From Alcanivorax sp. S71-1-4 (GTDB taxonomy: Bacteria; Pseudomonadota; Gammaproteobacteria; Pseudomonadales; Alcanivoracaceae): DNA of 51,794 nucleotides. The notes beneath the pieces were generated by a model. That model searched no databases and was not told where the DNA came from. It saw only the letters and a list, made by a program, of their open reading frames with translations. Both the position numbers and the translations under genes were made by a program. The stretch is from positions 1 through 51,794 of the forward strand of contig NZ_AQOR01000028.1 of the NCBI RefSeq assembly GCF_009846755.1, read 5' to 3'. This document shows, piece after piece, positions 15,748-51,794 of the stretch; positions within the stretch are counted from its first letter, which is position 1, and each line of letters starts with the position of its first letter.

Positions 15748-17085
15748 ATGACAGTGCATAAAAACAAGACCCTACACCTATTGATTGGCGGATTGCTGGT
15801 GCTGGCCTATTACGCTGGCCTGCCCGCGCACCTGTGGGAGCCGGAGCCGGGGTTTGCCGTACCGGCGCCCTCGCAGAACACGCCGGCCCCGGACGATAGC
15901 TGGCAACTCAACTTTGCCTCCGACGGTACGACGATGCAGACCCACGCGGCGTCCATGGTGGAACTGCCGGACGGTCGCATCCGTGCCTTCTGGTTTGCCG
16001 GCACCCGAGAGGGCTCGGCGGACGTCAATATCCATTCTTCCGTGTTTGATCCGGCCTCTGGCGACTGGAGCGGCGAGCAGGTTCTGCTGACCCGCGAGCA
16101 GGTCAGTGAAGGGCTGGGCCGCTATGTGCGCAAGCTGGGCAACGTGGTCCCGGCCGTAGACAGCGATGGCCGGCTGCGCCTGTATATGGTGGTGGTCAGC
16201 TTCGGTGGCTGGGCGGCAAGCCGGCTGGCCGTGGCCGAGTCCGACGACGATGGCAGCACCTGGCACATCTCTGATGGGCTGGTGACGTCACCGTTCTTCA
16301 ACCTGAGTACGCTGGTAAAGGCACCGCCGATCCGCTATGAGGACGGCACCATCGGCCTGCCGGTGTACCACGAGTTCGCCGCCAAGTTCGGCGAAGTGCT
16401 GCGGCTGGACGAAGACAACCGCATTCTGGAGCGTTCGCGCATCGGCAAGCTGCGTGAATCCCTGCAGCCGCTGGTGCTGGTCAACGGTCCCGATTCCGCA
16501 GTGGCGTTCCTGCGCAACGCCAACAACAGCCGGCCTGGCATTCTCTGGCGCAGCGATACCCGGGATAGCGGCCATAGCTGGTCCTCGCTGGATGACGGGC
16601 AGTTGCCCAATCCGGGTTCCGCCGTCGGCGGGGTGCGCCTGGGTGACGGCCACTGGTTGCTGGTAGCGAACAACAACGCGGTGGAACGTGATGATCTCTA
16701 TATTCTGGAGACCCGCGACCACGGCCAGAGCTGGCAGACCCTGCATGCCATGCACGACGATGCGGCCCTGCGTACCGCGCCGGTGTCAGTGGAAGGCTTC
16801 CGCGACATGGTGCGTACCGCGCTCTCCACTATTGATGAAGGCCCGATGACCAAAGACCAACGCGACCGTGTGATGCAGGCAGCGGTGCGCAACAACTGCC
16901 GCAGTGATTTCTGCGTTTCGCAATTCGACTATCCCTACGTGATCCGCGCCAGCAATGGCGACATCCACATTCTCTATTCCTGGAAAAAGAGCCTGATCGC
17001 CCATGCGTGGTGGCGGGCGGCGCAACAGTATGACCGGCCCTTGCCGCTGGACCAGCGCCAGGCACACGTGGAGGGGGCACGATGA
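15748..17085 (+). CDS. Membrane-anchored sialidase-fold (BNR/Asp-box) protein
   Basis: The 445-residue product has an N-terminal membrane anchor (about residues 9-24) and a six-bladed beta-propeller of the BNR_2/exo-alpha-sialidase-like family. Asp boxes are visible at SDDDGSTW (165-172), TRDSGHSW (271-278) and TRDHGQSW (322-329). The RIP motif with its catalytic arginine, expected near the start of a true sialidase, is not present; the equivalent region reads QTHAASMVELPDG. Sialidase activity is therefore doubtful. It would face the periplasm. Two cysteines (RNNCRSDFC) near the end may form a disulfide. The stop overlaps the start of the next gene (ATGA), indicating coupled translation. Confidence 0.8.
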   Translation: MTVHKNKTLHLLIGGLLVLAYYAGLPAHLWEPEPGFAVPAPSQNTPAPDDSWQLNFASDGTTMQTHAASMVELPDGRIRAFWFAGTREGSADVNIHSSVFDPASGDWSGEQVLLTREQVSEGLGRYVRKLGNVVPAVDSDGRLRLYMVVVSFGGWAASRLAVAESDDDGSTWHISDGLVTSPFFNLSTLVKAPPIRYEDGTIGLPVYHEFAAKFGEVLRLDEDNRILERSRIGKLRESLQPLVLVNGPDSAVAFLRNANNSRPGILWRSDTRDSGHSWSSLDDGQLPNPGSAVGGVRLGDGHWLLVANNNAVERDDLYILETRDHGQSWQTLHAMHDDAALRTAPVSVEGFRDMVRTALSTIDEGPMTKDQRDRVMQAAVRNNCRSDFCVSQFDYPYVIRASNGDIHILYSWKKSLIAHAWWRAAQQYDRPLPLDQRQAHVEGAR

Positions 17086-38611: not shown

Positions 38612-39370
38612 TCAGGGCGCTTTCGCCAGCTTCGCTTCAATCTCCTGTGCATGCTGCTGCAACGCGCGCGCCACTTCGCGGATTTTGCCCGGGTTCAGGC
38701 GCGTGGTCGGCGCTGACAACGAAATGGCCAGCCGCACTGGTCGCACGCCTGGTACGGCCACTGCGACACAGCGCAGGCCGGTTTCCACCTCCTCGTCATC
38801 GACCGCATAGCCGCGCCGGCGGATCAGCCGCAACTCGTGGCGCAGGGCGTCCGCCGAGACGGTGGTCTTGTCGGTAAAGCGCTGGAAGCTCTGCTGGCGG
38901 ATGCAGCCTTCCAGCGAGGTGTCGTCCAGTTGCGACAGCAGCGCCTTGCCCAGCCCGGTGCAGTAGGCTGGCAGCCGTTTGCCGATGTGGGTGATCACTG
39001 TCAGGCTGCGCGAGCCTTCTCCCTTGGCCACGTAACACACCATGTCATTGTCCAGAATGGCGGCATGGATGGTTTCGCCGAACTGTTGTGCCAGTGCCTC
39101 GACATGGGGCTGGGCAAGGCTGTGCATGGCATCGCTGATGGATACGCGGCCGCCGAGATCGGCCAGCAGCAGGCCCAGTTCAAAGGCGCCGTCCGGGGTG
39201 CGCACCACCGCGCCGACCTGTTGCAGCGTGAGCAGAAAGCGGTGCAGGGTGGCAACGTTGATATCCAGCCGCGCAGTGAGCTGCGCCAGTGTCAGTTTTT
39301 CGCCGGCATACGTGAACGCATTGAGAATACGGAATGCCTTGGTCACGGAGGCGTTGACGGGGGTTGCCAT
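38612..39370 (-). CDS. IclR family transcriptional regulator
   Basis: The 252-residue product has an N-terminal winged helix-turn-helix (KLTLAQLTARLDINVATLHRFLLTLQQVGAV) and the IclR effector domain (CYVAKGEGSRSLTVITHIGKRLPAYCTGLGKALLS, RGYAVDDEEVETGLRCVAVAV). The family often controls aromatic-acid catabolism (PcaR, PobR, and related regulators). It lies downstream of, and in the same direction as, the aromatic operon, separated from it by the Nudix gene, so it is the best candidate for its regulator. Its target site was not identified. Confidence 0.92.
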   Translation of the reverse strand: MATPVNASVTKAFRILNAFTYAGEKLTLAQLTARLDINVATLHRFLLTLQQVGAVVRTPDGAFELGLLLADLGGRVSISDAMHSLAQPHVEALAQQFGETIHAAILDNDMVCYVAKGEGSRSLTVITHIGKRLPAYCTGLGKALLSQLDDTSLEGCIRQQSFQRFTDKTTVSADALRHELRLIRRRGYAVDDEEVETGLRCVAVAVPGVRPVRLAISLSAPTTRLNPGKIREVARALQQHAQEIEAKLAKAP

Positions 39371-39433
39371 GGAAGTCCCTTGCCAGTGGTCACGGGCCGG
39401 CCAGTGTAATACGCGGCCAGCGGGGCGGACAGC

Positions 39434-40024
39434 TCAGGCAGGCTGCAAGGCCTGCCGCAGTTCGCGCATGATACGTGCGGTCAGGCCCCAGATGGCATGG
39501 CCGCCATAGTCCATCACCAGTGTGTCGCGTAACTCGCCGCGATAGTAACGATGACGTGGCAGGTAATGCTGCTCTGTCAGAAAAAATGACAACGGGACTT
39601 CCAGAACCTCGCTGACCTCCGCTGGTTGCAGCCGCCAGACGGGCCGCTGTGTCAGCGTGCCGAGTACCGGATAGACGCGCACGCCGCTGCTGTTGCGCAG
39701 CGCCGGCAGCACGGTGTGGACCCGCACGGCGCTGGGCGAGAGGCCGAGTTCTTCGTCCGCTTCGCGCAGCGCGGCGCGCACCACGTCGGTATTGTCTTCC
39801 GGTTCCAGCAGGCCACCGGGCAAGGAGATTTCGCCGGCATGATGACGCATGTCGGCGCTGCGTCGGGTCAGGATCACCGGGCAGTCCGGCTCGGTGGCCA
39901 GCAATGCGATCAGCACCGCCGCCACGCGGTCTTCGCCCGGGGCGGGAAATGGTCCCGGCGGGGCGCTCGCACTGGCGGTGCCGCCGAGGGTGCTCAGACG
40001 GTGGTGCAGTTGCTCTGGCGTCAT
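39434..40024 (-). CDS. Nudix hydrolase, CoA pyrophosphatase-like (NudL/YeaB)
   Basis: Hydrolyses CoA or acyl-CoA to phosphopantetheine derivatives and 3',5'-ADP. The 196-residue product contains the NudL-type region MRHHAGEISLPGGLLEPED followed by the Nudix box end AALREADEELGL (about 84-95), the acidic residues being the metal ligands. It is 15 bp downstream of the reductase gene and may be co-transcribed with the aromatic operon by read-through; a specific role in it is not evident. Confidence 0.88.
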   Translation of the reverse strand: MTPEQLHHRLSTLGGTASASAPPGPFPAPGEDRVAAVLIALLATEPDCPVILTRRSADMRHHAGEISLPGGLLEPEDNTDVVRAALREADEELGLSPSAVRVHTVLPALRNSSGVRVYPVLGTLTQRPVWRLQPAEVSEVLEVPLSFFLTEQHYLPRHRYYRGELRDTLVMDYGGHAIWGLTARIMRELRQALQPA

Positions 40025-40039
40025 GGCGTGTCCCGTCGC

Positions 40040-41053
40040 TCAGAAGAATCGGTCAAAGTGTACCTGTTGTTGCGGTACCTGGTGATCCAGCAACAGCATG
40101 CGCGTGGTCGCTTGCACCATCGGCGGCGGGCCGGCCAGGTAGCATTCCAGCGTGGCCAGCCTGTCCCCGAGTGTGTGCGACACCAGTTCATGGATAAAGC
40201 CGGTGGCGCCGTGCCAGCTATCGCTGGCGCCCGGTTCGGAGACGGCGACATGAAACCCGGCGCGCTCACTGAAACCGGGCAGGCTTTGCAGTTCCGCCAG
40301 ACCGCAGATGTCTGCGGGCGTGCGTGCACCGAAAAAGAAATGCAGCCGGCGCTGCGCCAGCGTCGGGTCGCTGAGCAGCCCCCGGGCGATCGACAGCACG
40401 GGCGAAATACCGGACCCGCCGGCAATGCACAGCACATCGCGCGGCGACGCCGGTTGCAGGTGCGCGAGGCCATAGGGCCCGTCCAGCAGCAGGCTGTCGC
40501 CGGGATGCAGGGAGGCAAACAGCGCTTCACTCACTTCACCGCCCGGCTTGCGCCGGATCCAGAAATCCCAGATGCCGTCGTCGTTACCGAGATTGCTCAT
40601 TGAATAGGCACGTGGTGCGCGAGCACCGTTCAACGTGAGCATGGCGTACTGCCCCGGTAAAAAATGCGCCGGCGCGTCGGTGTGGAAACGGAATTCGATG
40701 ATATCCGCAGTGACATCGCGGCGCGCCACAAGCGTGGCGTGCTGGCGTCGTGGCCGGTACAGCGGTACGAACTGCGCATCGTTCGGCATGCGAATGGTGA
40801 TGTCGCCGAGCGCGCGGCACTGGCAGGCCAGCTTGCGGCCTTTCTTGATGTCGCGCGGTGTCAGCGCCGGCGCATCGGGCCAGAGTTCCTCGATCTCGCC
40901 GTCCAGCAACTCGAATTTGCAACTGCCGCAACCACCGGAGTTGCACTCGTACGGCAGGCCGATGCCCTGGCTCAGCCCGGCCCGCAGCAGCGTGTCGTGC
41001 GTCTCGCCCTGTTCGAAACGGATGTCGGTATTGTGCAGATGAACTGTCGGCAT
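40040..41053 (-). CDS. Ring-hydroxylating dioxygenase ferredoxin reductase (2Fe-2S, FAD, NAD)
   Basis: Electron-entry flavoprotein of the Rieske oxygenase. The 337-residue product has an N-terminal plant-type 2Fe-2S domain with C37, C42 and C45 (CNSGGCGSC) and C77 or C79. The FAD domain carries RAYSMSN, and the NAD domain carries CIAGGSGISPVLS and a late CYLAGPPPMV. It is the NahAa/BenC architecture. The start at 41053 has AAGGAG upstream; an upstream in-frame extension is rejected. It is next to a separate Rieske ferredoxin, so the system is probably three-component with two electron carriers (class III). Confidence 0.92.
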   Translation of the reverse strand: MPTVHLHNTDIRFEQGETHDTLLRAGLSQGIGLPYECNSGGCGSCKFELLDGEIEELWPDAPALTPRDIKKGRKLACQCRALGDITIRMPNDAQFVPLYRPRRQHATLVARRDVTADIIEFRFHTDAPAHFLPGQYAMLTLNGARAPRAYSMSNLGNDDGIWDFWIRRKPGGEVSEALFASLHPGDSLLLDGPYGLAHLQPASPRDVLCIAGGSGISPVLSIARGLLSDPTLAQRRLHFFFGARTPADICGLAELQSLPGFSERAGFHVAVSEPGASDSWHGATGFIHELVSHTLGDRLATLECYLAGPPPMVQATTRMLLLDHQVPQQQVHFDRFF

Positions 41054-41055
41054 GA

Positions 41056-41406
41056 TTACTCCTTCGCGCGGCCGGCGCGCAGGTTGATGTAGACCTTGCC
41101 GTCTTCCACCTGCACGGGATAGCTGCGCACCGGCAGCACACAGGGAAACGACAATGCCTCGCCGGTCCGGATGTCGAAGGTGCCTCCGTGCCAGGGGCAC
41201 TCGACCACGAAATCCTCGTCCACTTCGCCTTCTGACAGCAGTGCCTGACCGTGGGAGCAGGTATCGTCGGTGGCATAAAACGCATCGTCGACCCGATACA
41301 GGGCTACCGGATCATGGCCCGGTGGCTTGATCTGGCGAATATGGTTGTTGGCCAGTTCGCTGGCCTCGCACACATAGAAGCGGGCGAAATCAATGACGGC
41401 GTTCAT
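41056..41406 (-). CDS. Rieske-type ferredoxin of the dioxygenase
   Basis: The 116-residue soluble protein has the Rieske cluster ligands C50/H52 (DTCSHGQALL) and C70/H73 (ECPWHGGTFD). It would shuttle electrons from the reductase to the oxygenase alpha subunit. Only 2 bp separate it from the reductase gene. Typical Rieske ferredoxins are about 105 residues, so it is full length. Confidence 0.93.
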   Translation of the reverse strand: MNAVIDFARFYVCEASELANNHIRQIKPPGHDPVALYRVDDAFYATDDTCSHGQALLSEGEVDEDFVVECPWHGGTFDIRTGEALSFPCVLPVRSYPVQVEDGKVYINLRAGRAKE

Positions 41407-41433
41407 GAGTCTTCTCTCCGTGTTAGGGGCAGT

Positions 41434-42330
41434 TCAGGCGATTCCGTAGGCGCTCACCAGCACCACACCGGCCACGGTAGCGACCGTGCCGGTGATGACT
41501 TTTGGGGTGAACAGTTCATCGGCACGCAGAAACAGCCAGGACACCAGCAACACAAACAGCGGCGTGGTGGCGGCAATCGGTGCAATCACCACCAGCGCTT
41601 CGCGTTGCAGGGACAGGTAAAGCAGCATTGGTCCCAGCCCGGAAAACACACCGGCCAGAACAAAGAAGAAAAATTCCCGGCGGCTGCAACGAATCTCGCC
41701 CGCCTTGCCGGTGGCCAGCACGTACAGGCTGGCGAACAGCCAGGACGAAAAGCAGGTGACTGCTGCTGCAGTGATGGCATCCGTGCCGAGGTCGATGCCC
41801 ATCTTGCGGAACACCACCGAAATGCCATAGCACAGCGAGGCTGCCAGCGGCAGCAGGAGGTAAGTGCGCGGTACCTGCGCCAGGCTGCGTGTACCCTGCT
41901 GCCCGCCTTCGGAACCCACGATCACGCTGCCGACCACTACCAGCAGGGCGCCAGCCATGCCGAGCCAGGACAGATGCTCGCCGAGAAACAGGATCGCCAG
42001 CAGGACCGACACCACCGGGTGCGTCAGTGTCAGCGGCGTGGTGATGTTGGCGCCCAGGTAGGTCATGCCGTGGAACTGGAACATGCGGCCCAGCAATGGC
42101 GCGAACATGCCGGACAGGAAAAAGTAGCGCCATTGCCACCAGTCACCGAACTGCGGCCCGTACATCGCCAGGCTGATCAGCCACAGGAACACCACGTTCA
42201 CCGACAAGGTGACCCACAGTGCCGTCGTGGTGCTGGCTGTTTTTACGCCGACACGCACACACACGAACGTCAGCGCAAACATCAGCGCGGACAGCAGCGC
42301 GATGACGACCGGAAACAGTGCGGGCATCAT
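41434..42330 (-). CDS. EamA/DMT-superfamily permease
   Basis: The 298-residue product has ten predicted helices in two EamA repeats. The first starts with FALTFVCVRVGVKTASTTTALW and the second with LPLAASLCYGISVVFRKMG; the second-repeat signature is LLYLSLQREALVVIAPIAATTPLFVLL. These are metabolite exporters or importers. Adjacent ATGs at 42330 and 42327 make the exact start uncertain. Its place inside the aromatic operon suggests it moves a pathway substrate or by-product. That is inference. Confidence 0.85.
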   Translation of the reverse strand: MMPALFPVVIALLSALMFALTFVCVRVGVKTASTTTALWVTLSVNVVFLWLISLAMYGPQFGDWWQWRYFFLSGMFAPLLGRMFQFHGMTYLGANITTPLTLTHPVVSVLLAILFLGEHLSWLGMAGALLVVVGSVIVGSEGGQQGTRSLAQVPRTYLLLPLAASLCYGISVVFRKMGIDLGTDAITAAAVTCFSSWLFASLYVLATGKAGEIRCSRREFFFFVLAGVFSGLGPMLLYLSLQREALVVIAPIAATTPLFVLLVSWLFLRADELFTPKVITGTVATVAGVVLVSAYGIA

Positions 42331-42358
42331 CGTGCCGAACCTCCGACGAGACAGGCCA

Positions 42359-43165
42359 TCACGCCATGTCCCCGTCAAGGCGCATGCCGCGTTTCCCCGT
42401 GTCGATCACTTCACCGGTGACGTAGGAAGCGTCGTCCGAGGCCAGGAAGGCGATCACGGCGGCCTGTTGTTCTACCGTGGCCGGGTGGTCGAACAGGCCT
42501 TCGCGGGTGACGTAGTCATAGAAGTACTTGTTCCAGCGCTGTTCCTGTTCATCCAGCGGGCGTTCCAGGCGCGGTGTTGGCCGTTCTTTCACTGCCGTGT
42601 TGCCCGGGGCCACGCAGTTGACGCGGATATTCAGGTGTGCCAGTTCGACCGCGAGAGCAGTGGTCAGGCCCACCACGCCGCCCTTGGAGGCGGAATAGGG
42701 GATGCGGAAAATGCCCATGGTCGCGTTGGAGCCGACATTGACGATGCTGCCGCCACGTTGCATGTGCGGGATGACGGCGCGACAGCACCACAGCGGCGGC
42801 CAGAAAGAGCGGTCCACTTCTGCCCGGATTTCGTCTTCGCTGTAATGCCAGAACGGCTTTTTCCAGATGGTGCCGCCAACGTTGTTGACCAGTACATCAA
42901 TCTTGCCGAAAGCCTCCTGCGCGCGGGCCATCGTGTCCTGCGCGCCGTCAAAGGTGGCCAGGTCGGCGATGGCCGTGACGGCCTGATAGCCTTCCGCACG
43001 CAGTGCGTCGGCGGCGGCCTGCGCCGGGCCGGCGGCCTTGTCGGCCAGCACGACATTGGCGCCCTCGCGCGCCAGCCGCCAGGCGGTGGCCAGGCCGATG
43101 CCCTGGCCTGCGCCGGTAATCACTGCCACTTTGCCGATAAAGCGTTTGCAGCCGTGTTCGCTCAT
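42359..43165 (-). CDS. cis-dihydrodiol dehydrogenase, BenD/CmtB-like SDR
   Basis: Oxidises the cis-diol made by the dioxygenase to a catechol, with decarboxylation if the substrate is a benzoate-type 1,2-diol. The 268-residue SDR has TGAGQGIG (17-24), NNVG (94-97) and the catalytic triad S146, Y157, K161. The segment NNVGGTIWKKPFWHY and LWCCRAVIPHMQ are strongly characteristic of BenD and CmtB, and separate it from ordinary SDRs. It directly follows the extradiol dioxygenase gene. Whether it decarboxylates depends on the position of the diol. Confidence 0.85.
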   Translation of the reverse strand: MSEHGCKRFIGKVAVITGAGQGIGLATAWRLAREGANVVLADKAAGPAQAAADALRAEGYQAVTAIADLATFDGAQDTMARAQEAFGKIDVLVNNVGGTIWKKPFWHYSEDEIRAEVDRSFWPPLWCCRAVIPHMQRGGSIVNVGSNATMGIFRIPYSASKGGVVGLTTALAVELAHLNIRVNCVAPGNTAVKERPTPRLERPLDEQEQRWNKYFYDYVTREGLFDHPATVEQQAAVIAFLASDDASYVTGEVIDTGKRGMRLDGDMA

Positions 43166-43202
43166 GCAATGTTCTCCTGTCGGGACGGACTGTGCCCGTC
43201 AA

Positions 43203-44060
43203 TTACTCGCTGAATTCCTTCACGTTCGGGCGCGCGCCCCACATGCAGAACGAGGTGGGCTTCATCTCGAAATGCCGTGGCACATACTCTGCTTCATCGG
43301 TGATGCGCTTGACGCCTGAGGAGTACTCATAGACCCGTTTGTCCGGGCCGAGGAAGTAGATAAAGATCGCGGTGGATGTGGGGTGGCGGCCGGGGCCAAA
43401 TACGATCGGCACCCCCTGTTCCTGCAGGAAGTACCAGGAGCGCATCACGTCGTCGATGCTTTCCACCTGGAAGTTGACGTGCTGCACGCCGGTCTTGTCG
43501 GAAGAAAACAGCGCGATCTTGTGGTGCACCGGATCAATGCGCAGCAGGGCGCCATCGCCGATACGGTCGCTGACGCGCGCGCTCATGGTCTGTGTCCAGA
43601 ACGCGAGGTCGCGTTCGATGTCGCGGCTGTGCAGGCCAAAATGCCCGAACTCGGTGATACCTGCATCGCGGCAGGGGAAGTAGCGCACGCCCGTCACGTG
43701 CGGACGGTACACCAGCTCAATGCGGTTTTCGTTCGGGTCGACAAACTCAAAGAAGGCGTCCACGTGCCGTTCAGCGCAGGCTGCCTCGTCACCCCATTGC
43801 ACCGCGATGCCGAGAGCCTGGAGTTCCTCGGCGGCCTGACGCAGCTGCGCGTATTCGCTGAGCTCGAACGCCGAGGCGTCGTAGCCGGCATCGCCCTGGA
43901 TGTAACATAGGTTGAACGCGCTGTTGTCCCCGCGCAAATACGCGTGGGTGGCGGTGCGTTCGCGCAACTCCAGGCCGAGGATGCGGGTGCCGAACTGCAC
44001 CATTTCATCCAGGTCCCGGCAACCCAGGCGGAGATAACTGATGTCATGCAGCGGAATCAT
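43203..44060 (-). CDS. Type I extradiol ring-cleavage dioxygenase (VOC family, CmtC-like)
   Basis: Two-domain vicinal-oxygen-chelate enzyme that cleaves a catechol next to its hydroxyls. The 285-residue product keeps the Fe(II) ligands in the C-terminal domain: H140 (FGHFGL), H194 (GVQHVNF) and E245 (YEYSSG). Also present are the likely acid/base H180 (VHHKIAL) and H226 in GPGRHPTST. Size and ligand spacing match BphC-type enzymes, and the local motifs resemble 2,3-dihydroxy-p-cumate 3,4-dioxygenase relatives. The ATG at 44060 has GGGAGA upstream. It lies 27 bp after the TRAP permease gene. Confidence 0.88.
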   Translation of the reverse strand: MIPLHDISYLRLGCRDLDEMVQFGTRILGLELRERTATHAYLRGDNSAFNLCYIQGDAGYDASAFELSEYAQLRQAAEELQALGIAVQWGDEAACAERHVDAFFEFVDPNENRIELVYRPHVTGVRYFPCRDAGITEFGHFGLHSRDIERDLAFWTQTMSARVSDRIGDGALLRIDPVHHKIALFSSDKTGVQHVNFQVESIDDVMRSWYFLQEQGVPIVFGPGRHPTSTAIFIYFLGPDKRVYEYSSGVKRITDEAEYVPRHFEMKPTSFCMWGARPNVKEFSE

Positions 44061-44087
44061 GATGAATCTCCCGATCAACTCAAGGGG

Positions 44088-46034
44088 TCACTGTTTGCTG
44101 TGGGCAGCATGTTGTTTCAAAGCCGTGTAGCGTGGGGTGCTGCGCAGGCGACGGCTGATCAGGTAGCCACCGGCAAGCACCAGCGCTGTGATCCCGGCTG
44201 CGGTCCACGGCGAGAATGCCAGCAAGACCGCACTCACCAGCGCCACGCGTACCGTCCTGGACAGCTGGCCGTGGTACCAGCCTTCGGACGTGCAGGCGAG
44301 GATCATCACCGACGCGGTGGCAAGCGAGATATCCATGACGATCTGCTGCCACTCACCGATCAGCAACAGCCCCGGGTGGTAGATGAACGCGTACGGCAGC
44401 GCGAACACCACCATGCCGATGCGTGCGGCGGTCAGTGATACCGCCATCGGGCGTTCATCGGCGATGGTGCTGGCCACGTAGGCGGACACCGCCACCGGCG
44501 GGGTGATGTAAGACGCCACGGCGTAGAAAATCAGAAACAGGTGGGCCTGCAGCACGGTCAGGCCGGCATCCACCAGTGCGGGGGCGACCATCACCGCGAC
44601 CAGCGAATAGACTGCCACCACGGGCATCCCCATGCCGCAGATGATGGTGACGACGGTAGCCAGCATCAGTGCCAGCAGCAGATGTGCTTCGGCGACGCTG
44701 AAGATCAGTGCCGAGAGTTTTGATGCGAGGCCGGTGAGATTCAGTCCGAGCATCAGGATGCCGGCACCGGCCACGGCGGCGATCAGTGGCGCCAGGGCGG
44801 TGCAGACTTCCACACAGCCTTCAATAAAGCGTTTTGGCGTGATGCGTTGTCCTTTGATCAGCCAGCTCGCCACGATCACAGTCAGTAAAGAGGTGCTGGC
44901 GGCCAGCGCGGGCGTATGGCCATTGAGCATGTAGTAGACCAGCAGCGCCAGCGGCAGGATGAAGACCCAGCCGGTGCGGACCACCGCCCAGAAGGAGGGC
45001 ACCAGTTCGCTGTCGATCTGTCCGACTTTGTGCCGGCTGGAATAATTGTGCACCTGGATGTAGATGCCGAGGTAGTAGAGCAGGGCGGACGCCAGGATCG
45101 ACAGCAGAATGTCGCTGTAGGCAATGCCGGTGAATTCCACCATCAGGAACACCACCGCGCCCATGACCGGTGGCAGCAGCGCGCCACCGGTAGAGGCCAC
45201 CGCTTCCACGGCGGCGGCATAGCGGCCGCCGTAGCCGGCGCGTTTCATCATCGGAATGGTGATGGAACCGGTGGTCATCACATCCGCTGCCGGGCTGCCG
45301 GAGATCATCCCGAACAGACCGCTGGAGGTCACCGCCACTTTGGCCGAGCCGCCGACACGACGCCCGGCCAGCAGCGCGGACAAGTTGAAGAAGAAGTTGC
45401 CGCCGCCGCTTTTCTCCAGGAACTTGCCGAAGGTGACGAACAGGAAAGCGTACACCGCCGCGACCTGCACCGGCGCCGAGAACAGGCCGCCGTCATGGGG
45501 CGATACCATCAGACCCTCAAGCAGGTAATCCCATTCCAGCCCGCGGTGGCCGAAAAAGCCGGGCAGGTGATCGCCGAACAGGCAATAGGCGATCACCGTC
45601 CAGACCACCACCGAGATGCCTGGCCCGACACATCGGCGCAGCAGTTCCAGCGTCAACAGCAGATAGAGGCCCGCCACCAGCAGGTCGGTGGTTTCGAAAA
45701 AACTCAGGCCGCTGATCCATTCGTGATAGCGACCCATCTGGGAAATCAGATAAAGCCCGCCCGCCAGGGCCAGCGCGGAAAGCAGATAATCCACCGGCGT
45801 ACTGCGGTGTACGTCCGGTGCATAGCTGAATGCCAGAAAGGCGATCACATACATCGGCACGATGAACACGATCGCCAGCTCCAGGCGACCGAATTCGCCA
45901 GCCAGCGCGTACCAGATCTCGAACAGGGTCAGTGGCACTGCCAGGCAGGCGAAGAAAATATACTTGTAGCGGTTCATGGGCACTTTGTTGCCCATCTGGA
46001 ACAGCAACCAGAATGCACGTTTGATGTAGTACAT
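44088..46034 (-). CDS. TRAP transporter fused permease (TAXI type)
   Basis: The 648-residue inner-membrane protein fuses the small (DctQ-like, about four helices in the first 170 residues) and large (DctM-like, 12+ helices) TRAP subunits. The DctM part is recognisable by GLFGMISGSPAADVMTTGSITIPMMKRAGYGG and SPHDGGLFSAPVQVAAVYAF. Such fusions partner with TAXI binding proteins, and one is encoded two genes upstream (47.6-48.6 kb). It would take up an organic acid with a Na+ or H+ gradient. A possible short upstream ATG (46034) is used, with AGGTG nearby. Confidence 0.93.
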   Translation of the reverse strand: MYYIKRAFWLLFQMGNKVPMNRYKYIFFACLAVPLTLFEIWYALAGEFGRLELAIVFIVPMYVIAFLAFSYAPDVHRSTPVDYLLSALALAGGLYLISQMGRYHEWISGLSFFETTDLLVAGLYLLLTLELLRRCVGPGISVVVWTVIAYCLFGDHLPGFFGHRGLEWDYLLEGLMVSPHDGGLFSAPVQVAAVYAFLFVTFGKFLEKSGGGNFFFNLSALLAGRRVGGSAKVAVTSSGLFGMISGSPAADVMTTGSITIPMMKRAGYGGRYAAAVEAVASTGGALLPPVMGAVVFLMVEFTGIAYSDILLSILASALLYYLGIYIQVHNYSSRHKVGQIDSELVPSFWAVVRTGWVFILPLALLVYYMLNGHTPALAASTSLLTVIVASWLIKGQRITPKRFIEGCVEVCTALAPLIAAVAGAGILMLGLNLTGLASKLSALIFSVAEAHLLLALMLATVVTIICGMGMPVVAVYSLVAVMVAPALVDAGLTVLQAHLFLIFYAVASYITPPVAVSAYVASTIADERPMAVSLTAARIGMVVFALPYAFIYHPGLLLIGEWQQIVMDISLATASVMILACTSEGWYHGQLSRTVRVALVSAVLLAFSPWTAAGITALVLAGGYLISRRLRSTPRYTALKQHAAHSKQ

Positions 46035-46098
46035 AACACACCTGTTGGGTGGCAGTTACGGGCAGGCCCCGGTTGTGCCGTGGCCTGCGCGGTCAGGA

Positions 46099-46128
46099 GA
46101 GCGGGCCGGCCACGTCAGCGGCCCGCTC
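46099..46128 (-). terminator. Stem-loop between porin and TRAP permease
   Basis: Perfect 10-bp stem GAGCGGGCCG / CGGCCCGCTC with a 10-nt loop, about 23 nt past the porin stop. There is no U-tract, so it may only reduce expression of the downstream genes. Confidence 0.5.
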
Positions 46129-46151
46129 CGGTGTCACGACCGGTCAGGGGG

Positions 46152-47477
46152 TTACCATTCCACCTGCGCACGGGCCTGGACGAAGGACGGCTCGTCGCCG
46201 TCGTTGGGACCGCCATCGACGTTCAGCACGCTGCCGTATTCCAGCGTGAAGCGCAGCCGCTGTTCCGGATACCAGTTGATGCCGAGCGCGGCCATGTCGA
46301 TCTGACCGCCAGTAATACTCTGGTCACTCAATTCCAGCGTGCTGTAGTTGGCCACCAGTTGCCAGGCACCGGCGCCGCCCTGGCTCAACGGGCGTGCGGG
46401 AGTGGGTGGGCCGAACACATTCAGCCGTGGATCGTAGGCACGGGATTCGCCAGTCAGGAACACACCCACATTGACAAAACCGCCAGTGAACTCCGGCTTT
46501 TCACCATCAGCGGCGCCACCCTGGATCGCGTCGTAGTCCTGCTGGAAGTACTCCGTTTCCAGTTCGAAGCGGCCGCGCTGGTACATGGCCTGTGCGCCAA
46601 CGGCGGAGAAGCCGTCGGAGATAAAGGCGCCGGTGTCCACCGGGCGGAACGAGCTCAAGTGTGTTTGCGGGCGCGTGCGCAGGCGATGGCTGTCCGATCC
46701 TTTCGAGGACTGCTCGCGAAACGAGGCGCCAAGCATCAGCACGTGGCCCTTTTCACGGATCGGCGAATAGGTCACCTGGGTGGCGATATCCACCGGATCA
46801 TCCAGGTTGTTGTCGGTGGCACGGCTGCCCAGCGGCGCGCGGGCCACTGCGGTGCTCCAGCGCCAGCCGTCACCCAGCACATCCGCGCGCAGGCTCAGGC
46901 GGCGTTCGCCGGCGCCGAGCATCAGGCTCGGGTTCGGCTGCTCCATGAACATGGTGTACTTCGGGCTCTGCTGGCCGAGAAAACCGAACGGCAGGAACTG
47001 GTTGCCCAGGCTGACCAGCACCGGCGTGCCGGCCACGTCCAGATTGTTGTAGCGCAGGTAGGCATCCTTGATGCCGTCTTCGGCGCTGCCGGTGAAGTCG
47101 TACTGGAACACATAGGACCAGTGTTTATAGAGCGTGCCGCTGGCTTCCAGGCGCGCCTGGCGGAACTTGGTGCCACCGCCCATGGGCGAGATGTCTTCGT
47201 CGTACCAGGCGGTATCGAGCAGCATGCGGCCGCCGACGCGCGCGGTGAAGTTGCCGTCATCGCTGTTGAACTGGATACGGCCGCCGCGTTGCTGCGCACT
47301 GACATTGCCCTTGTTGCTGTTTTCCAGGCGTTCTTCCAGCTGGCGAATACGTTCGGCCAGCTCCTCATTGCTCTGTGCCTGCGCCGGTTGTGTGCCGGCG
47401 GCGAGCAGGCCGCCAAGCAGCAGCAGAGACAGCGGTGCGCGGCGTGCGCGCAATGAGTCCATTGAGAGTCTGTTCAT
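46152..47477 (-). CDS. Outer-membrane porin (OprP/OprO-like)
   Basis: The 441-residue product has a signal peptide (ending near QPAQAQSN), a short coiled-coil (NEELAERIRQLEERLENSN) and a beta-barrel of the phosphate-selective-porin-like family, ending in an aromatic residue (QVEW). Features include GGRIQFNSDDGNF, GTKFRQARLEASGTLYKHW and NFLPFG-like GNQFLPFGFLGQ. Placed between the TRAP binding protein and permease genes, it probably admits the aromatic substrate across the outer membrane. The start at 47477 is chosen from ATGs at 47516, 47495 and 47477 by the signal peptide. Confidence 0.88.
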   Translation of the reverse strand: MNRLSMDSLRARRAPLSLLLLGGLLAAGTQPAQAQSNEELAERIRQLEERLENSNKGNVSAQQRGGRIQFNSDDGNFTARVGGRMLLDTAWYDEDISPMGGGTKFRQARLEASGTLYKHWSYVFQYDFTGSAEDGIKDAYLRYNNLDVAGTPVLVSLGNQFLPFGFLGQQSPKYTMFMEQPNPSLMLGAGERRLSLRADVLGDGWRWSTAVARAPLGSRATDNNLDDPVDIATQVTYSPIREKGHVLMLGASFREQSSKGSDSHRLRTRPQTHLSSFRPVDTGAFISDGFSAVGAQAMYQRGRFELETEYFQQDYDAIQGGAADGEKPEFTGGFVNVGVFLTGESRAYDPRLNVFGPPTPARPLSQGGAGAWQLVANYSTLELSDQSITGGQIDMAALGINWYPEQRLRFTLEYGSVLNVDGGPNDGDEPSFVQARAQVEW

Positions 47478-47573
47478 CTCGGTTCCCTTTGTCATTCTTA
47501 AATAGTGAGAATTCATCTTCGTATCTGGTCAGGCTAAAAAAAGGCGGCGCTGGCCGGTGGCGGCCGGCGCGGC

Positions 47574-48608
47574 TTACTTGATCAGCCCGATTTCCCGGTA
47601 AAAGGCCTCGGCACCCGGATGCAGTGCCAGGCTGCCCATGTCCGGCAGGCGCTCGCGGCTGGCCAGCGACAGCGCCGGATGCAGCGAACGATAGCGCTCC
47701 ATTTGCTCGTACATGGCTTTGGCCAGCTTGTAGGCATCGTCGAAAGTGGCTTCCGGCCCGGCCACAATGATGAAGCTGGTGAACGGCACGATCAGGTCTT
47801 CCTGCTGGAAGCTGTAGCTGCCGCCGGGAATCACGCCGGTCTTGATGCCCAGTTCTTCGGCGACGTATTCGGCCAGTTCTTTCGAAAGGGGTACAAAGGC
47901 GATGTCCTGCACGCTGCCGAGTTCGACGATCGAGCCGGACGGTGTGGCGCCGCCGGTGATGATCACGTCCAGGCGGCCATCACGCATCAGGTCGTTGGAG
48001 GCACCAGTGGGTTGCGGCACCAGACGGCCGCCCCAGCGCTCAATGTCCTCCATCGTCTTGTCGTAATAGGCCAGCAGTGCGCGCACATGTTCGCGTGCCC
48101 AGAGGTTGCCCGGCTGGTTGACGGAAACACGCATCGGGACCTGTTTTTTGATCAGGTCGTCAAAGGTTTCTACGCCATGTTCTTCAAGGAAGGCGCGTCG
48201 CGCGTATACTTTCAGCGCGAACACGTCCGGTGCGCCATTGAGCACCCCTGTGATGCTGCCTTCGGGGTAAGGGGCGCGGAATGGTGCGCGACCGGCATAG
48301 GCCATGCGCGGTTCAATAATGCTTTCCAGCGCGAACGGTCGGCGTCCGGTACGCAGATGCTCAAGGCCGCCGGCCGGGTTGCCCGGTTCATAGATGATGC
48401 TGGAGTTGGGGTAGGCGCGGCGCACGGCGTCGATCACGCCTTCGCCGAAGACCGTCACCTGGCCGCCGGAGGAATAGCCGGCGATGGTCACGTTGACGGG
48501 GCTGTCATTCACGTCGGCCGCATGAATGAACGGGGCGAGGCAGGTCAGTATCCCTCCGAGAAGGGCAGTCACAATGAGGCGGCAAGGCCGCTGTAGCGCG
48601 TTCAGCAT
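47574..48608 (-). CDS. TAXI family TRAP transporter solute-binding protein
   Basis: The 344-residue periplasmic protein has a signal peptide (CRLIVTALLGGILTCLAPFIHAA). The TAXI-family features are GGQVTVFGEGVIDAVRRAYPNSSIIYEPGNPAGGLEHLRTG and the later PMRVSVNQPGNLWAREHVRALL. It binds the substrate and presents it to the fused TRAP permease. The ATG at 48608 is used; the frame extends upstream without a signal peptide. It sits 166 bp after the dioxygenase beta gene, across a terminator-like hairpin. Confidence 0.92.
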   Translation of the reverse strand: MLNALQRPCRLIVTALLGGILTCLAPFIHAADVNDSPVNVTIAGYSSGGQVTVFGEGVIDAVRRAYPNSSIIYEPGNPAGGLEHLRTGRRPFALESIIEPRMAYAGRAPFRAPYPEGSITGVLNGAPDVFALKVYARRAFLEEHGVETFDDLIKKQVPMRVSVNQPGNLWAREHVRALLAYYDKTMEDIERWGGRLVPQPTGASNDLMRDGRLDVIITGGATPSGSIVELGSVQDIAFVPLSKELAEYVAEELGIKTGVIPGGSYSFQQEDLIVPFTSFIIVAGPEATFDDAYKLAKAMYEQMERYRSLHPALSLASRERLPDMGSLALHPGAEAFYREIGLIK

Positions 48609-48722
48609 GATGTTTCTCCGTGTCTGTCGTTTCTTGTAGAAATAGTTGTCTTGCCGCGGGCACTCCGGCCCGTCGTCGATCCGCACTGCGTGGGTAATCG
48701 CGGTGCGGACAGCTCCTTCTGA

Positions 48723-48750
48723 AGCGGGCGCCTGGCGTCTGGCGCCCGCT
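48723..48750 (-). terminator. Stem-loop between dioxygenase beta and TAXI genes
   Basis: Perfect 10-bp stem AGCGGGCGCC / GGCGCCCGCT with an 8-nt loop, 24 nt past the beta-subunit stop. No U-tract is seen. It may attenuate expression of the transport genes relative to the catabolic ones or stabilise the upstream mRNA. Confidence 0.5.
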
Positions 48751-48774
48751 GTTCCTGCGTTGCACGTCGCTGGC

Positions 48775-49305
48775 TTACACCAGAAAAGTCAGGTTTGGCA
48801 TGGCGTCGTCGTTGTTCAGCAGCATCACTTTCTTGCTGCGGATGCGGTAACCGTCGGCGCTGTCGATCAGATGATAGTGGGTCTTTCCCAGCCAGATGTT
48901 CTGCACGCCGACGCGGGTTTCGCCGAGCACGAAACTCGCCGCCACTTCCAGTTCATTGCCGTTCACTGACAGCGGCACCACACCGCTGATACTGCGCACC
49001 AGCCTGGCCAGCGGCCGGTAGGCATGGGCTGTCTTGTCTTTCAGCCGCATGACGCGCTCCAGCAACCGGGCGCGGTTGTCATAAATAATGGCAATGCCGG
49101 TCGCCGGGTCCTGTTCATCACTGTTGCAGGGCACCCAGTACAGCACTTCATCGCTATCCCACAGGGTGATCCAGCGGTCGTACTCGTGCGCATCCATCAG
49201 TGCGGCTTCCAGTGCCAGGAAGCGCTCCAGCCGTTGTTGTGTGTGCGTATCGACGATGCCGTGGTGAATCACTTCCGGCATTGCCTTGACGATCTGTTGA
49301 GCCAT
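48775..49305 (-). CDS. Aromatic-ring-hydroxylating dioxygenase, small (beta) subunit
   Basis: Structural beta subunit of an alpha3beta3 Rieske dioxygenase. The 176-residue product is the usual size and shows the family pattern LERFLALEAALMDAHEYDRWITLWDSDEVLYWVPC, HAYRPLARLVRSISGV and TYHLIDSADGYRIRSKKVMLLNND-like C-terminus (HYHLIDSADGYRIRSKKV). It follows the alpha subunit by 28 bp. Confidence 0.92.
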   Translation of the reverse strand: MAQQIVKAMPEVIHHGIVDTHTQQRLERFLALEAALMDAHEYDRWITLWDSDEVLYWVPCNSDEQDPATGIAIIYDNRARLLERVMRLKDKTAHAYRPLARLVRSISGVVPLSVNGNELEVAASFVLGETRVGVQNIWLGKTHYHLIDSADGYRIRSKKVMLLNNDDAMPNLTFLV

Positions 49306-49333
49306 TCAGGTGTTCTCCCAAAACGCCGTGGCA

Positions 49334-50635
49334 TCAGCCCCGGGTCATCAGTTTTTTCCATTCCTGCATCTGTGCGCGCTGCGTGATCTCATCGCTGATA
49401 CAGGCTGCCACCGATCCGTCTTCATCCACTTCTTCGCGCTGGATGCCACGACCAAGCTGCACCCAGGGATCGGCGTCGGCGAGCAGGCCGCGCTGGGTAC
49501 GCTCGAAAATTTCTGCATCATCCGGTGAGCCGGCCGCCGCCGGGCCATAGAACGCCTCGTGGGCGCGCAGGCGTTTCTCGTTGATCGACTGGCCGACGCC
49601 TTTCAGGAACACCGGGTACATCAGGACTTCGGTTTCGCCGGGGCTGATCGGGATCACCACGCGCACATGGTCGTGAATCAGTTGCAGGTTGGGGAACAGG
49701 CCCAGGTGCGGGTCGCCGTGCCAGGCAATCAGGTCGTGGGCACGTTCTTCGCCGTAGGCGCCGACCATGTCATCAACGTAGCGTGCGCCTTCTTCCGTGC
49801 GCCGCAGTTCCTCGATAGAGGCGTCCGCGTGGGGGCGGCGCTGCTCGCGAAAATCCAGGCAGGCATGGCCATTCGGGAAACCTCGTGTGCGGCTTTTCGA
49901 AGTATCCGCGAACGGGTCTTCCAGGTGCAGAGCGCCGACGGCGGAGCCGGTGGTGCTTTCGCGCTTGCTGAAAATCTTGAACACGGACATATGCACGTAA
50001 TGCGGGTGATAGCCGTCCATGCCCACCTGCTTCCAGTTGCCCCGGTAGCGGGTGCGGTTCACCACGCCCGGCTTGACCTGCAGCTCGCCAGTGGGCGAGG
50101 CATCGACCATGATGTCGATATAGGGTTTGGTCGGGCCGAGGTATTCCGACAGCGATATGCCTTCCCTGGCCACGCTGGCGAAAACAAAACCACGATAACT
50201 TTCCACGCGCGGCAACCGGGTCAGGCCGTGCGCCTCACACTGGAAATCCTTGTCGTAGGCTTCCGGGCCGGTCAGGCCGACCAGATCGCCCCGGGTGTCA
50301 TAGGTCCAGCCGTGATACCAGCACTGGAAACGACGCGTGTTGCCATGGCTGGATTCACACACTTGCGCGCCACGGTGGCGGCAGCGATTGATCAGCAGAT
50401 GGATCTCGCCCTGCTCGTCGCGCGTGGCGATGACCGGATAACGGCCAATCTGCAGGCGTTTGAAATCCCCGGCGTTGGGAATCTCGCTTTCGTGCAGGGC
50501 AAACAGCCAGGTGCTGTGGAAGATACGTTCCATCTCATCCTGGAAAATCTGTTCGTCGGTGAAGATCGCGCTATGGACGCGGTCTTCCTGTACCAGTGCG
50601 TTGTAGTCGCGACCGGTGGGGATGCGGGTTGTCAT
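49334..50635 (-). CDS. Aromatic-ring-hydroxylating dioxygenase, large (alpha) subunit
   Basis: Catalytic Rieske subunit that inserts both oxygen atoms of O2 into an arene to form a cis-dihydrodiol. The 433-residue product has the Rieske ligands C85/H87 (NRCRHRGAQV) and C105/H108 (CWYHGW). The mononuclear-iron region GNWKQVGMDGYHPHYVH has D207, H210 and H215. With a beta subunit, a Rieske ferredoxin and an FAD/2Fe-2S reductase in the same operon, the system is complete. The start at 50635 (MTTRIPTGRDYN) fits family length; a longer open frame upstream overlaps the hydrolase gene and is rejected. Confidence 0.93.
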   Translation of the reverse strand: MTTRIPTGRDYNALVQEDRVHSAIFTDEQIFQDEMERIFHSTWLFALHESEIPNAGDFKRLQIGRYPVIATRDEQGEIHLLINRCRHRGAQVCESSHGNTRRFQCWYHGWTYDTRGDLVGLTGPEAYDKDFQCEAHGLTRLPRVESYRGFVFASVAREGISLSEYLGPTKPYIDIMVDASPTGELQVKPGVVNRTRYRGNWKQVGMDGYHPHYVHMSVFKIFSKRESTTGSAVGALHLEDPFADTSKSRTRGFPNGHACLDFREQRRPHADASIEELRRTEEGARYVDDMVGAYGEERAHDLIAWHGDPHLGLFPNLQLIHDHVRVVIPISPGETEVLMYPVFLKGVGQSINEKRLRAHEAFYGPAAAGSPDDAEIFERTQRGLLADADPWVQLGRGIQREEVDEDGSVAACISDEITQRAQMQEWKKLMTRG

Positions 50636-50688
50636 TGCCGATGTCCTCGTTACTGCGCTTGCGTCAGGCTGCTCACGGGTTGGGCTGG

Positions 50689-51522
50689 TCACTCGTCCAG
50701 GAAGTGGCTGACCAGCAGGTTGAATCGCGCCGCGTGCTCGATCTGCGTCCAGTGCCCGCACTGGCCGAACAGATGCAATTGCGCACGCGGCAACAGGGAA
50801 AACAGTTTCTCGGAGGTTGCCGGCGGCACGATGGTGTCCTCGCGGCCGTGGATGATCAGAGCCTCCTTGTCGATGGCCTGGATATCCTCGTCGCGGCTGG
50901 CCAGCGCATCGACCCAGCGTTGCCGTGGGGCTGGAAACATTTTCGCGAACGATTCCTGGTAGCCGGGGCGTACGCTGGCGCGATAGCGCAGCTCCGCCAG
51001 CTCGTCGCTGACCAGATCCTTGTTGAAGGCAAAGGTGTCCATCAGCGTACGCATGTTGCTGACCGAGGGCGTATACCCCCACACCTGATCCAGCCCTTTT
51101 GTCAGGGTAAACGGCACACCGGCCGCGCCCATCAGCACCAGACGACGTACCCGCTCCGGATGACGGATCGCCAGCGCCAGCGCCAGCGCACCGCCGTAGG
51201 AATTGCCGACGACATCCGCCTGCGGAATGTCCAGCGCGTCCAGAAAACCGATGGCATGACCGACCCAGGTATCCAGGTTGTAATCGATGCCTTCGGGGCG
51301 CTCGGTATAGCCGAAGCCGACCATGTCCGGCGCGACCACGCGGCGCCCGCTGGCCAGCACCGGAATGTTCAGGCGCCAGTTGGCCCAGGCGGTCACGCCC
51401 GGCCCGGAGCCGTGCAGCAGCAACAGCGGTGTGCCGGTGTCATGGCCCTGGTCGTGATAATTGGTATCGATGCCGGCAGCCTGGATATGCAGGCCGATTT
51501 CAGGATTCTGCGCGCTGCTCAT
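50689..51522 (-). CDS. Meta-cleavage product hydrolase (alpha/beta-hydrolase, DmpD/XylF/CmtE-like)
   Basis: Hydrolyses the C-C bond of the yellow ring-cleavage product, giving 2-hydroxypenta-2,4-dienoate and a carboxylic acid. The 277-residue enzyme has the family hallmark LLLLHGSGPGVTAWANWR (oxyanion region), nucleophile S108 (VGNSYGG), D229 (HGREDTIVP) and H257 (GQCGHW). It overlaps the tautomerase gene by 4 bp, so translation is coupled. A hydrolase rather than only a dehydrogenase branch suggests the ring-cleavage product is a ketone or carries a side chain. Confidence 0.92.
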   Translation of the reverse strand: MSSAQNPEIGLHIQAAGIDTNYHDQGHDTGTPLLLLHGSGPGVTAWANWRLNIPVLASGRRVVAPDMVGFGYTERPEGIDYNLDTWVGHAIGFLDALDIPQADVVGNSYGGALALALAIRHPERVRRLVLMGAAGVPFTLTKGLDQVWGYTPSVSNMRTLMDTFAFNKDLVSDELAELRYRASVRPGYQESFAKMFPAPRQRWVDALASRDEDIQAIDKEALIIHGREDTIVPPATSEKLFSLLPRAQLHLFGQCGHWTQIEHAARFNLLVSHFLDE

Positions 51523-51719
51523 TGCGCACCTCCGTCACGTTTCGCAAGCGAAACGCCGGCGCTGCCCCAGTGGGTTTTCGGCACTTCCTGAATCACGACA
51601 CGCACGGATTCCTTTTTCACGCCGAGTGTGTCCACCAGCGTGTCGGTCAGGTTGGCGATCAGTGATTCGATCTGTTGCGGTGTGCGGCCGTGGGTCAGGG
51701 TGACCTGCAATAGCGGCAT
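51519..51719 (-). CDS. 4-oxalocrotonate tautomerase family enzyme (2-hydroxymuconate tautomerase)
   Basis: A 66-residue enzyme with the catalytic N-terminal proline (MPLLQVTLTHGR), exposed once methionine is removed. The conserved arginine/lysine region VKKESVRVVIQEVPKTHWGSAGVSL resembles XylH/DmpI. It isomerises 2-hydroxymuconate or the dienol products of the lower meta pathway. It overlaps the hydrolase by 4 bp and follows the aldolase gene by 24 bp. Confidence 0.9.
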   Translation of the reverse strand: MPLLQVTLTHGRTPQQIESLIANLTDTLVDTLGVKKESVRVVIQEVPKTHWGSAGVSLAKRDGGAQ

Positions 51720-51743
51720 GGTGTTCTCCCGTTGTGTTGTGCT

Positions 51744-51794
51744 TCAGGCGTTGCGCATGTCCAGCGCCACGTCCACGATCATGTCTTCCTGTCC
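51744..51794 (-). CDS. 4-hydroxy-2-oxovalerate aldolase, C-terminus only (runs off window)
   Basis: The last 16 codons read GQEDMIVDVALDMRNA before TGA. This matches the invariant C-terminus (GGQEDMIVDVALDL) of DmpG/BphI/MhpE-type aldolases, which cleave 4-hydroxy-2-oxovalerate to pyruvate and acetaldehyde. It is the first visible gene of the operon in transcription order; the rest lies beyond the right edge. Confidence 0.85.
   Translation of the reverse strand, partial: GQEDMIVDVALDMRNA

Follow-up and report, generated by a model that had tools for sequence, protein, structure and literature searches.

A putative o-phthalate (opa-type) operon in Alcanivorax sp. S71-1-4, present in reduced form with candidate substitutes for its missing steps elsewhere in the genome

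o-Phthalate is a breakdown product of plasticizers. Its degradation through 2,3-dioxygenation has been characterized in Pseudomonas PTH10, where a BenD-like decarboxylating dehydrogenase follows the dioxygenase and the resulting 2,3-dihydroxybenzoate undergoes extradiol cleavage (PMC6362003). Assays and deletion mutants of PTH10 assigned the conversion of o-phthalate to 2,3-dihydroxybenzoate to OpaA and OpaB, the formation of carboxy-hydroxymuconate semialdehyde (CHMS) to OpaC, and its conversion to hydroxymuconate semialdehyde (HMS) to OpaD. Along this route the BenD-type step releases one of the two carboxyls of phthalate, and the second leaves after ring cleavage (PMC6362003). The cluster (LC314585) comprises opaEIKJGFH, AaAb, L, M, N, C, B, D, O, Ac, and Ad; reverse-transcription PCR placed the genes as E-J-H-Ab-M-C-O-Ad, B immediately following C and D lying at some point beyond B (PMC6362003), and for the precise positions of L, N, Ac, and D we relied on syntenic Pseudomonas loci. 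According to a 2026 review, this route has been described so far only in PTH10 (PMC13040137). Here we analyzed a 51,794-nucleotide stretch of Alcanivorax sp. S71-1-4 (the window; contig NZ_AQOR01000028.1), which makes up the whole of contig C21 in a draft genome (G000) of 77 contigs rated 100% complete, and focused on the compact minus-strand operon at its right end (38612-51794). By comparison with PTH10, this is very probably an o-phthalate operon of the opa type, using the 2,3-dioxygenase route; several steps may be supplied from elsewhere in the genome.

The genes of the operon, in the direction of transcription, are as follows:

51744..51794, minus strand: 3' end of opaJ/dmpG, 4-hydroxy-2-oxovalerate aldolase (PF07836, 20.8 bits, below cut-off, E 0.004)
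51519..51719, minus strand: opaF-like 4-oxalocrotonate tautomerase (4-OT), 66 aa (TIGR00013, 59.0 bits, cut-off 56.9)
50689..51522, minus strand: opaH-like meta-cleavage C-C hydrolase, 277 aa (profile searches)
49334..50635, minus strand: opaAa-like Rieske oxygenase alpha subunit, 433 aa (carries the Rieske and the non-haem iron motifs)
48775..49305, minus strand: opaAb-like Rieske oxygenase beta subunit, 176 aa (PF00866)
47574..48611, minus strand: opaL-like TAXI solute-binding protein, 345 aa (TIGR02122, over cut-off)
46152..47516, minus strand: opaM-like outer-membrane porin (Porin_O_P), 454 aa (PF07396, 168.6 bits)
44088..46034, minus strand: opaN-like fused TRAP permease, 648 aa (TIGR02123, 521.5 bits, over cut-off)
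43203..44060, minus strand: opaC-like type I extradiol dioxygenase, 285 aa (predicted by orthology to be a 2,3-dihydroxybenzoate 3,4-dioxygenase)
42359..43165, minus strand: opaB-like cis-diol dehydrogenase, a BenD-like short-chain dehydrogenase/reductase (SDR), 268 aa (NF040811, BenD, 297 bits, below the cut-off of 380)
41434..42378, minus strand: opaO-like EamA/DMT-family permease, 314 aa (PF00892)
41056..41406, minus strand: opaAc-like Rieske ferredoxin, 116 aa (profile searches)
40040..41053, minus strand: opaAd-like ferredoxin reductase (Fer2-FAD-NAD), 337 aa (profile searches)
39434..40024, minus strand: Nudix hydrolase (PF00293)
38612..39370, minus strand: IclR-family regulator (PF01614, PF09339)

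Reading of open reading frames (ORFs) and profile searches recovered, on the minus strand and in the expected families, every gene named in the original prediction, which had seen here an aromatic-carboxylate uptake and meta-cleavage operon with a BenD-like dehydrogenase; that description holds, and the Nudix gene is a further member absent from its list. The 14 genes that are whole in the window are all open ORFs; starts of the alpha subunit, TAXI protein, extradiol dioxygenase, and reductase were chosen within longer ORFs before any comparison with PTH10 lengths.

All 12 opa-type genes whole in the window agree in family with those of PTH10, and their order, J-(F)-H-Ab-M-C-O-Ad, agrees with the order published from reverse-transcription PCR. 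Gene families, order, and synteny were observed directly. A three-component Rieske oxygenase (alpha, beta, Rieske ferredoxin, and FNR-type reductase; a class III system) lies within one operon, the BenD-like SDR adjoins a type I extradiol dioxygenase as long as OpaC, and a TAXI protein, a porin, and a fused TRAP permease are encoded inside the operon, features common to both clusters. Lengths (window/PTH10, in residues) are equal for Aa (433/433), C (285/285), Ad (337/337), and F (66/66), within four residues for H (277/276), B (268/269), and L (345/349), and 5-42 residues apart for Ab (176/171), Ac (116/110), N (648/660), O (314/300), and M (454/412). Most lengths equal those of PTH10 in P. 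taeanensis MS-3, Pseudomonas UBA2684, and Pseudomonas TH41, whose alpha subunits are 79-81% identical to that of the window and whose loci carry opaD; this check was lenient, the start codon nearest to the printed length being picked, and its exceptions included beta (176 vs. 171), one OpaG (257 vs. 264), and masses up to 1450 Da off. The 300-aa gene at the opaO place in P. taeanensis is an EamA protein too, while OpaO of PTH10 is labelled hypothetical (PMC6362003). OpaM of PTH10 and a porin from Alcanivorax pacificus W11-5 share 61% identity (PMC6362003, Table 1), and the figures of that paper give 50% identity of OpaB to BenD and 55% of OpaC to DhbA.

The substrate, which the original prediction had left unassigned, can thus be proposed by correspondence in family, length, and order with a characterized o-phthalate cluster; the close match to such a cluster that the prediction had named as its own counter-case is present in these three respects. 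The tautomerase, previously thought a misfit, corresponds to OpaF of the hydroxymuconate branch and is no anomaly. It carries Pro after the initiator Met, Arg11, and Arg39, which we take to be the important residues of 4-OT. The expectation that a carboxyl is kept until after ring cleavage agrees with the opa route, in which the second phthalate carboxyl is lost post-cleavage.

The operon is cut at 51794 by the contig end, which reduces the aldolase to its last 16 codons and stop. We therefore compared it with the closed genome of a congener (G035), whose counterparts of the 14 whole window proteins are 88-98% identical and whose operon reads MarR (divergent), dmpF, dmpG, 4-OT, hydrolase, alpha, beta, TAXI, porin, TRAP, extradiol, SDR, EamA, ferredoxin, reductase, Nudix, IclR; a DmpG-type gene occupies the place of the window's aldolase stub. 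Contigs C38 and C40 of the window strain also end in a DmpG-type gene, and C46 and C49 in a DmpF-type gene. The window end (51744-51794) and the right ends of C38 and C40 are three contig ends inside closely similar dmpG genes, and no match above the TIGR03217 cut-off (DmpG-type aldolase) was found in this genome, complete as it is rated. Given that three contigs end in dmpG-type and two in dmpF-type genes, near-identical dmpFG copies probably broke the assembly. The end of C49 matches the head of the congener's operon (MarR 100% and dmpF fragment 96% identical, same upstream DNA), and on that ground we regard C49 as adjoining C21. Since the draft has no TIGR03217-passing match, the congener's closed genome served for reading the upstream part of the operon.

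Nine operons were compared: those of the window, the congener, the metagenome-assembled genome (MAG) Alcanivorax ALOHA_A2.5_2 (G027, from another genus), Alloalcanivorax mobilis MT13131 (G023), P. taeanensis, UBA2684, TH41, an NGEE bin, and Pseudoxanthomonas spadix; one locus at 36% was left out. The window's alpha is 79-96% and its beta 66-88% identical to the eight others, and its hydrolase 72-97% identical to seven of them, none being found at the P. spadix locus. Given that much of the gene order recurs in other genera at ~80% alpha identity, chance is excluded as the source of this cluster, and the operon is real. A Nudix gene lies near the operon end in five of the nine (window, congener, A. 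mobilis, ALOHA MAG, and P. spadix), the P. taeanensis and UBA2684 loci stopping short of that position, and an IclR gene stands at the operon end in the first four of these.

The operon is not as complete as it had looked. Six of the nine operons have opaD between the ferredoxin and reductase genes (after the ferredoxin in P. spadix), and the window, congener, and ALOHA MAG operons lack it, the ferredoxin and reductase genes of the window being only 2 bp apart. The opaD product is a CHMS decarboxylase of the aminocarboxymuconate semialdehyde decarboxylase (ACMSD) family: the A. mobilis protein matched PF04909 with 118.1 bits and ACMSD in the PDB at E 7.5e-57. No OpaD homologue was found in the genomes of the window strain or the congener at E<=0.01, and the best match in the ALOHA MAG was only 27% identical. 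Absent from the same three operons (for the window strain, at the C49 and C21 ends) are opaE, opaI, and opaG, encoding HMS dehydrogenase, hydratase, and oxalocrotonate decarboxylase; a 4-OT match was likewise not found in the ALOHA MAG operon. In A. mobilis, P. taeanensis, and UBA2684 the operon, which has opaD, also encodes homologues of HMS dehydrogenase, 4-OT, and oxalocrotonate decarboxylase, while the HMS dehydrogenase match in TH41 is partial (49%) and the NGEE contig begins inside dmpG. The UBA2684 operon also has a second hydrolase-like gene (67%; L042, 4446-5273) between HMS dehydrogenase and hydratase, the place given for xylF/dmpD (PMC6362003).

Judging from its gene families, a second TAXI-TRAP and Rieske operon in the window strain could provide every lower step absent from the opa operon apart from CHMS decarboxylation. 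On C46 (L025, 1-12569) the order is GntR, TAXI, TRAP, BenA-like alpha (519 bits vs. the BenA cut-off of 781), beta, threonine-dehydrogenase-like alcohol dehydrogenase, BenC-like reductase, extradiol dioxygenase (57% identical to that of the window), HMS dehydrogenase, DmpE, and the start of DmpF, and C38 (L014, 7047-9567) carries the end of DmpG, DmpH, a 4-OT-like gene, and a putative outer-membrane protein. These genes form one run in the congener (L069, 1022-17896), in which the alcohol dehydrogenase was not called because the ORF caller took an opposite-strand frame; it is present in the ALOHA MAG and in another family genome (G022). HMS dehydrogenase, DmpE, and DmpH exceed the NCBIfam equivalog cut-offs, and the threonine-dehydrogenase-like Zn-dependent enzyme sits where the diol dehydrogenase is expected. 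Among 12 listed of 936 plasmid records, the best match to this operon was 50.9% identical, and 6 of the 12 were annotated BenA. As far as we found, this operon has no earlier description; that its substrate is isophthalate or another dicarboxylate is only a guess.

For the remaining step, the window strain encodes a class II aldolase-family protein (PF00596) on contig C77. Related proteins, 56-58% identical to one in a Caballeronia meta-cleavage cluster, occur in the window strain, the congener, and the ALOHA MAG, whereas the best match in the opaD-bearing A. mobilis is only 22% identical. At E<=1e-30 the protein is present in 5 of 46 family genomes (the same three, G022, and G044), and a C46-type extradiol dioxygenase (76-100% identity) is present in the same five, a count that takes no account of the kinship of these genomes; in G044 reductase, extradiol, class II aldolase, HMS dehydrogenase, and hydrolase lie in one run. 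Both the absence of opaD and the presence and co-occurrence of these candidate substitutes are observations. In PTH10 an opaD mutant did not grow on o-phthalate, indicating that CHMS decarboxylation is needed there, and the chemistry has a precedent in a class II aldolase, given that DhbB of P. reinekei MT1 decarboxylates CHMS (as described in PMC6362003). The candidate matched no NCBIfam family at E<=1e-20, and its PDB relatives, with fuculose-phosphate aldolase best (E 6.4e-10) and the decarboxylase NovR among them, leave its function unsettled. We judge the odds to be slightly better than even that this class II aldolase replaces OpaD and that the lower steps are supplied in trans.

In the proposed pathway, both the substrate and its uptake are assigned through orthology with the PTH10 cluster; in PTH10 the oxygenase, dehydrogenase, extradiol dioxygenase, and decarboxylase were assayed (PMC6362003). 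The porin OpaM and the TAXI-TRAP pair OpaL/OpaN would import o-phthalate, and OpaAaAbAcAd would dihydroxylate it at C2/C3. Uptake of o-phthalate by a TAXI-TRAP is on record for denitrifiers (PMC13040137). The BenD-like OpaB would then oxidize the diol with loss of CO2 to 2,3-dihydroxybenzoate, the ring of which the OpaC-like extradiol dioxygenase would open to yield CHMS. The second carboxyl would be removed by the DhbB-like class II aldolase-family decarboxylase from C77, dehydrogenase, hydratase, and oxalocrotonate decarboxylase would come from the second operon (C46 and C38), and the tautomerase, hydrolase, and aldolase of the window, together with the second operon's copies, would lead to pyruvate and acetyl-CoA. 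We lean modestly toward seeing the opa operon as a reduced plug-in that feeds a second resident pathway, the place of OpaD being taken by a class II aldolase-type decarboxylase that is not homologous to it and is encoded at an unlinked locus.

Several observations weigh against this interpretation. Membership was judged by family, length, mass, and order from the published description of the PTH10 cluster (PMC6362003; lengths and masses from Table 1). The OpaD superfamily (PF04909) has two weak matches in the window strain, one over the cut-off (38.5 bits) and one at 25.2 bits. The class II aldolase lies on a different contig from both operons, ~140 kb from opa in the congener, among LysR-, TRAP-, hydroxyacyl-CoA dehydrogenase-, and DctP-like genes (L071, 8108-13893; named by eye). 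The opa alpha was not found at E<=1e-60 in G022 or in G044 (89% complete), both of which have the class II aldolase; this ties the latter to the C46-type extradiol dioxygenase rather than to opa. The opaD-less form is known from only two or three lineages, and in a concatenated tree the ALOHA MAG groups with A. mobilis (62% support), which would weakly imply two losses of opaD. The P. spadix locus keeps opaD with no match to opaE-H, transport, or reductase genes in the available stretch, and TH41 and the NGEE bin have no TAXI, porin, TRAP, or 4-OT match. Given that P. spadix keeps opaD without opaE-H and that TH41 is without the three transport genes, loss of the lower genes does not depend on loss of opaD. 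Finally, dmpF at the operon head (C49, frame start near 16403) has a premature in-frame stop in the draft, which could be real or an assembly error. As a separate observation, a cluster of LysR-, class II aldolase-, TRAP-, hydroxyacyl-CoA dehydrogenase-, and DctP-like genes recurs at L072 and L092.

Could the loss of opaD instead mark a change of substrate, to a mono-carboxylate such as benzoate or toluate degraded via catechol as in the TOL meta pathway? The missing opaD, a BenA-like alpha with a BenD-like SDR, and a 4-OT and hydrolase that fit catechol meta-cleavage all agree with this, but the alpha scored 225.1 bits against the BenA model (TIGR03229, cut-off 780.95) and the extradiol dioxygenase 78.3 bits against catechol 2,3-dioxygenase (TIGR03211, cut-off 320.2). 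Between the three opaD-less and the six opaD-bearing operons, no alpha position is fixed differently, and five positions in the extradiol dioxygenase and two in the SDR are, although the test is low in power, TH41 and the NGEE bin carrying nearly the same operon. Given that the alpha has no fixed differences and 286 of 433 columns invariant, one substrate for both groups can be argued. All three opaD-less genomes also have a candidate CHMS decarboxylase, and OpaA of PTH10 left benzoate, terephthalate, and isophthalate undepleted (PMC6362003). We consider such a change of substrate quite unlikely.

That the operon is decaying and no longer works, a reading compatible with the o-phthalate assignment, appears slightly less probable still. 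The absence of opaD, opaE, opaI, and opaG and the stop in the acetaldehyde dehydrogenase gene dmpF speak for decay; on the other hand, all 14 whole genes are open, the congener has kept 88-98% identity over the same proteins, and its dmpF, like the C46 copy, is open at the codon where the C49 copy has its stop. That stop sits in a draft contig ending in a collapsed repeat, the reduced form is common to a MAG of another genus, and substitutes are present elsewhere in the genome.

The original prediction had drawn an analogy to p-cumate degradation. The p-cumate (cmt) operon carries a CmtD-like class II aldolase decarboxylase; no class II aldolase is among the genes of the operon studied here, the copy found being that on C77. 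Least probable of all is a p-cumate-like route for a mono-carboxylated alkylbenzoate (2,3-dioxygenation that leaves the carboxyl in place, extradiol cleavage, decarboxylation, and C-C hydrolysis to an alkanoate), for although a BenD-like SDR, a type I extradiol dioxygenase, and a C-C hydrolase are all present and OpaC of PTH10 is 51% identical to PsbC2 of Rhodopseudomonas palustris, named 2,3-dihydroxy-p-cumate dioxygenase, OpaC reaches no more than 26% identity with CmtC of P. putida KL47, OpaA acts on o-phthalate (PMC6362003; p-cumate is not among the substrates tested in the parts of that paper covered), the alpha has no fixed difference from opaD-bearing operons, and the HMS dehydrogenase, 4-OT, and oxalocrotonate decarboxylase of syntenic operons suit a cleavage product that is an aldehyde rather than an alkyl ketone. 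The analogy therefore gives way to the match with the opa cluster.

More distant relatives add little on the substrate. In the PDB, the best matches of the alpha (E 1.4e-51 and 7e-51), one a chain resembling phenylpropionate dioxygenase and the other a Rieske protein with no further name, do not fix it, and the best match of the extradiol dioxygenase (E 1.8e-19) is a glyoxalase/dioxygenase-family chain with no assigned function. Plasmid relatives were all below 60% identity among the best 25 of 931 records for the alpha and the best 30 of 242 for the extradiol dioxygenase. Elsewhere in the window strain, C15 (L073, 3485-12370) carries a LigB-type ring-opening dioxygenase, Rieske alpha/beta-like genes, and a hydratase, and C40 (L015, 6064-16017) the end of dmpG with thioesterase-, reductase-, branched-chain ABC-, porin-, and tannase-like genes, named by eye.

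Alcanivoracaceae are best known for alkanes, and in the open-licence literature searched we found no report of a 2,3-dioxygenase o-phthalate pathway in this family. Our comparison places the opa operon in Alcanivoracaceae, in the P. taeanensis genome, and, in part, in Pseudoxanthomonas spadix. It also offers a candidate case of non-homologous replacement of one pathway step, A. mobilis having the old enzyme and no close copy of the proposed new one.

Among known systems, plasmid p3 of Caballeronia zhejiangensis (NZ_CP084287; L038, 14525-27148) has a cluster resembling that of the window in alpha (51%), beta (44%), extradiol dioxygenase (52%), and hydrolase (61%), but there a protein annotated as PdxA-type takes the position of the BenD-like SDR (no SDR match), a class II aldolase is part of the cluster, and an MHS transporter stands in for TAXI-TRAP. 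The TOL/dmp pathways share the aldolase, acetaldehyde dehydrogenase, 4-OT, and hydrolase families with this operon and differ in that its extradiol dioxygenase scores below the catechol 2,3-dioxygenase cut-off, its Rieske ferredoxin is separate, and its predicted substrate is a dicarboxylate. The dhb system of P. reinekei MT1, known here from its description in PMC6362003 alone, has a DhbA-type extradiol dioxygenase and a class II aldolase-family decarboxylase, the latter unlinked to the operon in the window strain; o-phthalate conversion has never been reported for MT1, according to that paper. The opa cluster of PTH10 differs in having opaE, opaI, opaG, and opaD, all absent from the operon of the window strain, and in its regulation: no regulator was reported in the cluster (PMC6362003), whereas the window strain has a divergent MarR upstream (C49) and a Nudix-IclR pair at the end, which names MarR and IclR as candidate regulators for this type of cluster. 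The locus is thereby largely explained: the pathway is a known one, found in a lineage new to it and in a form both reduced and split.

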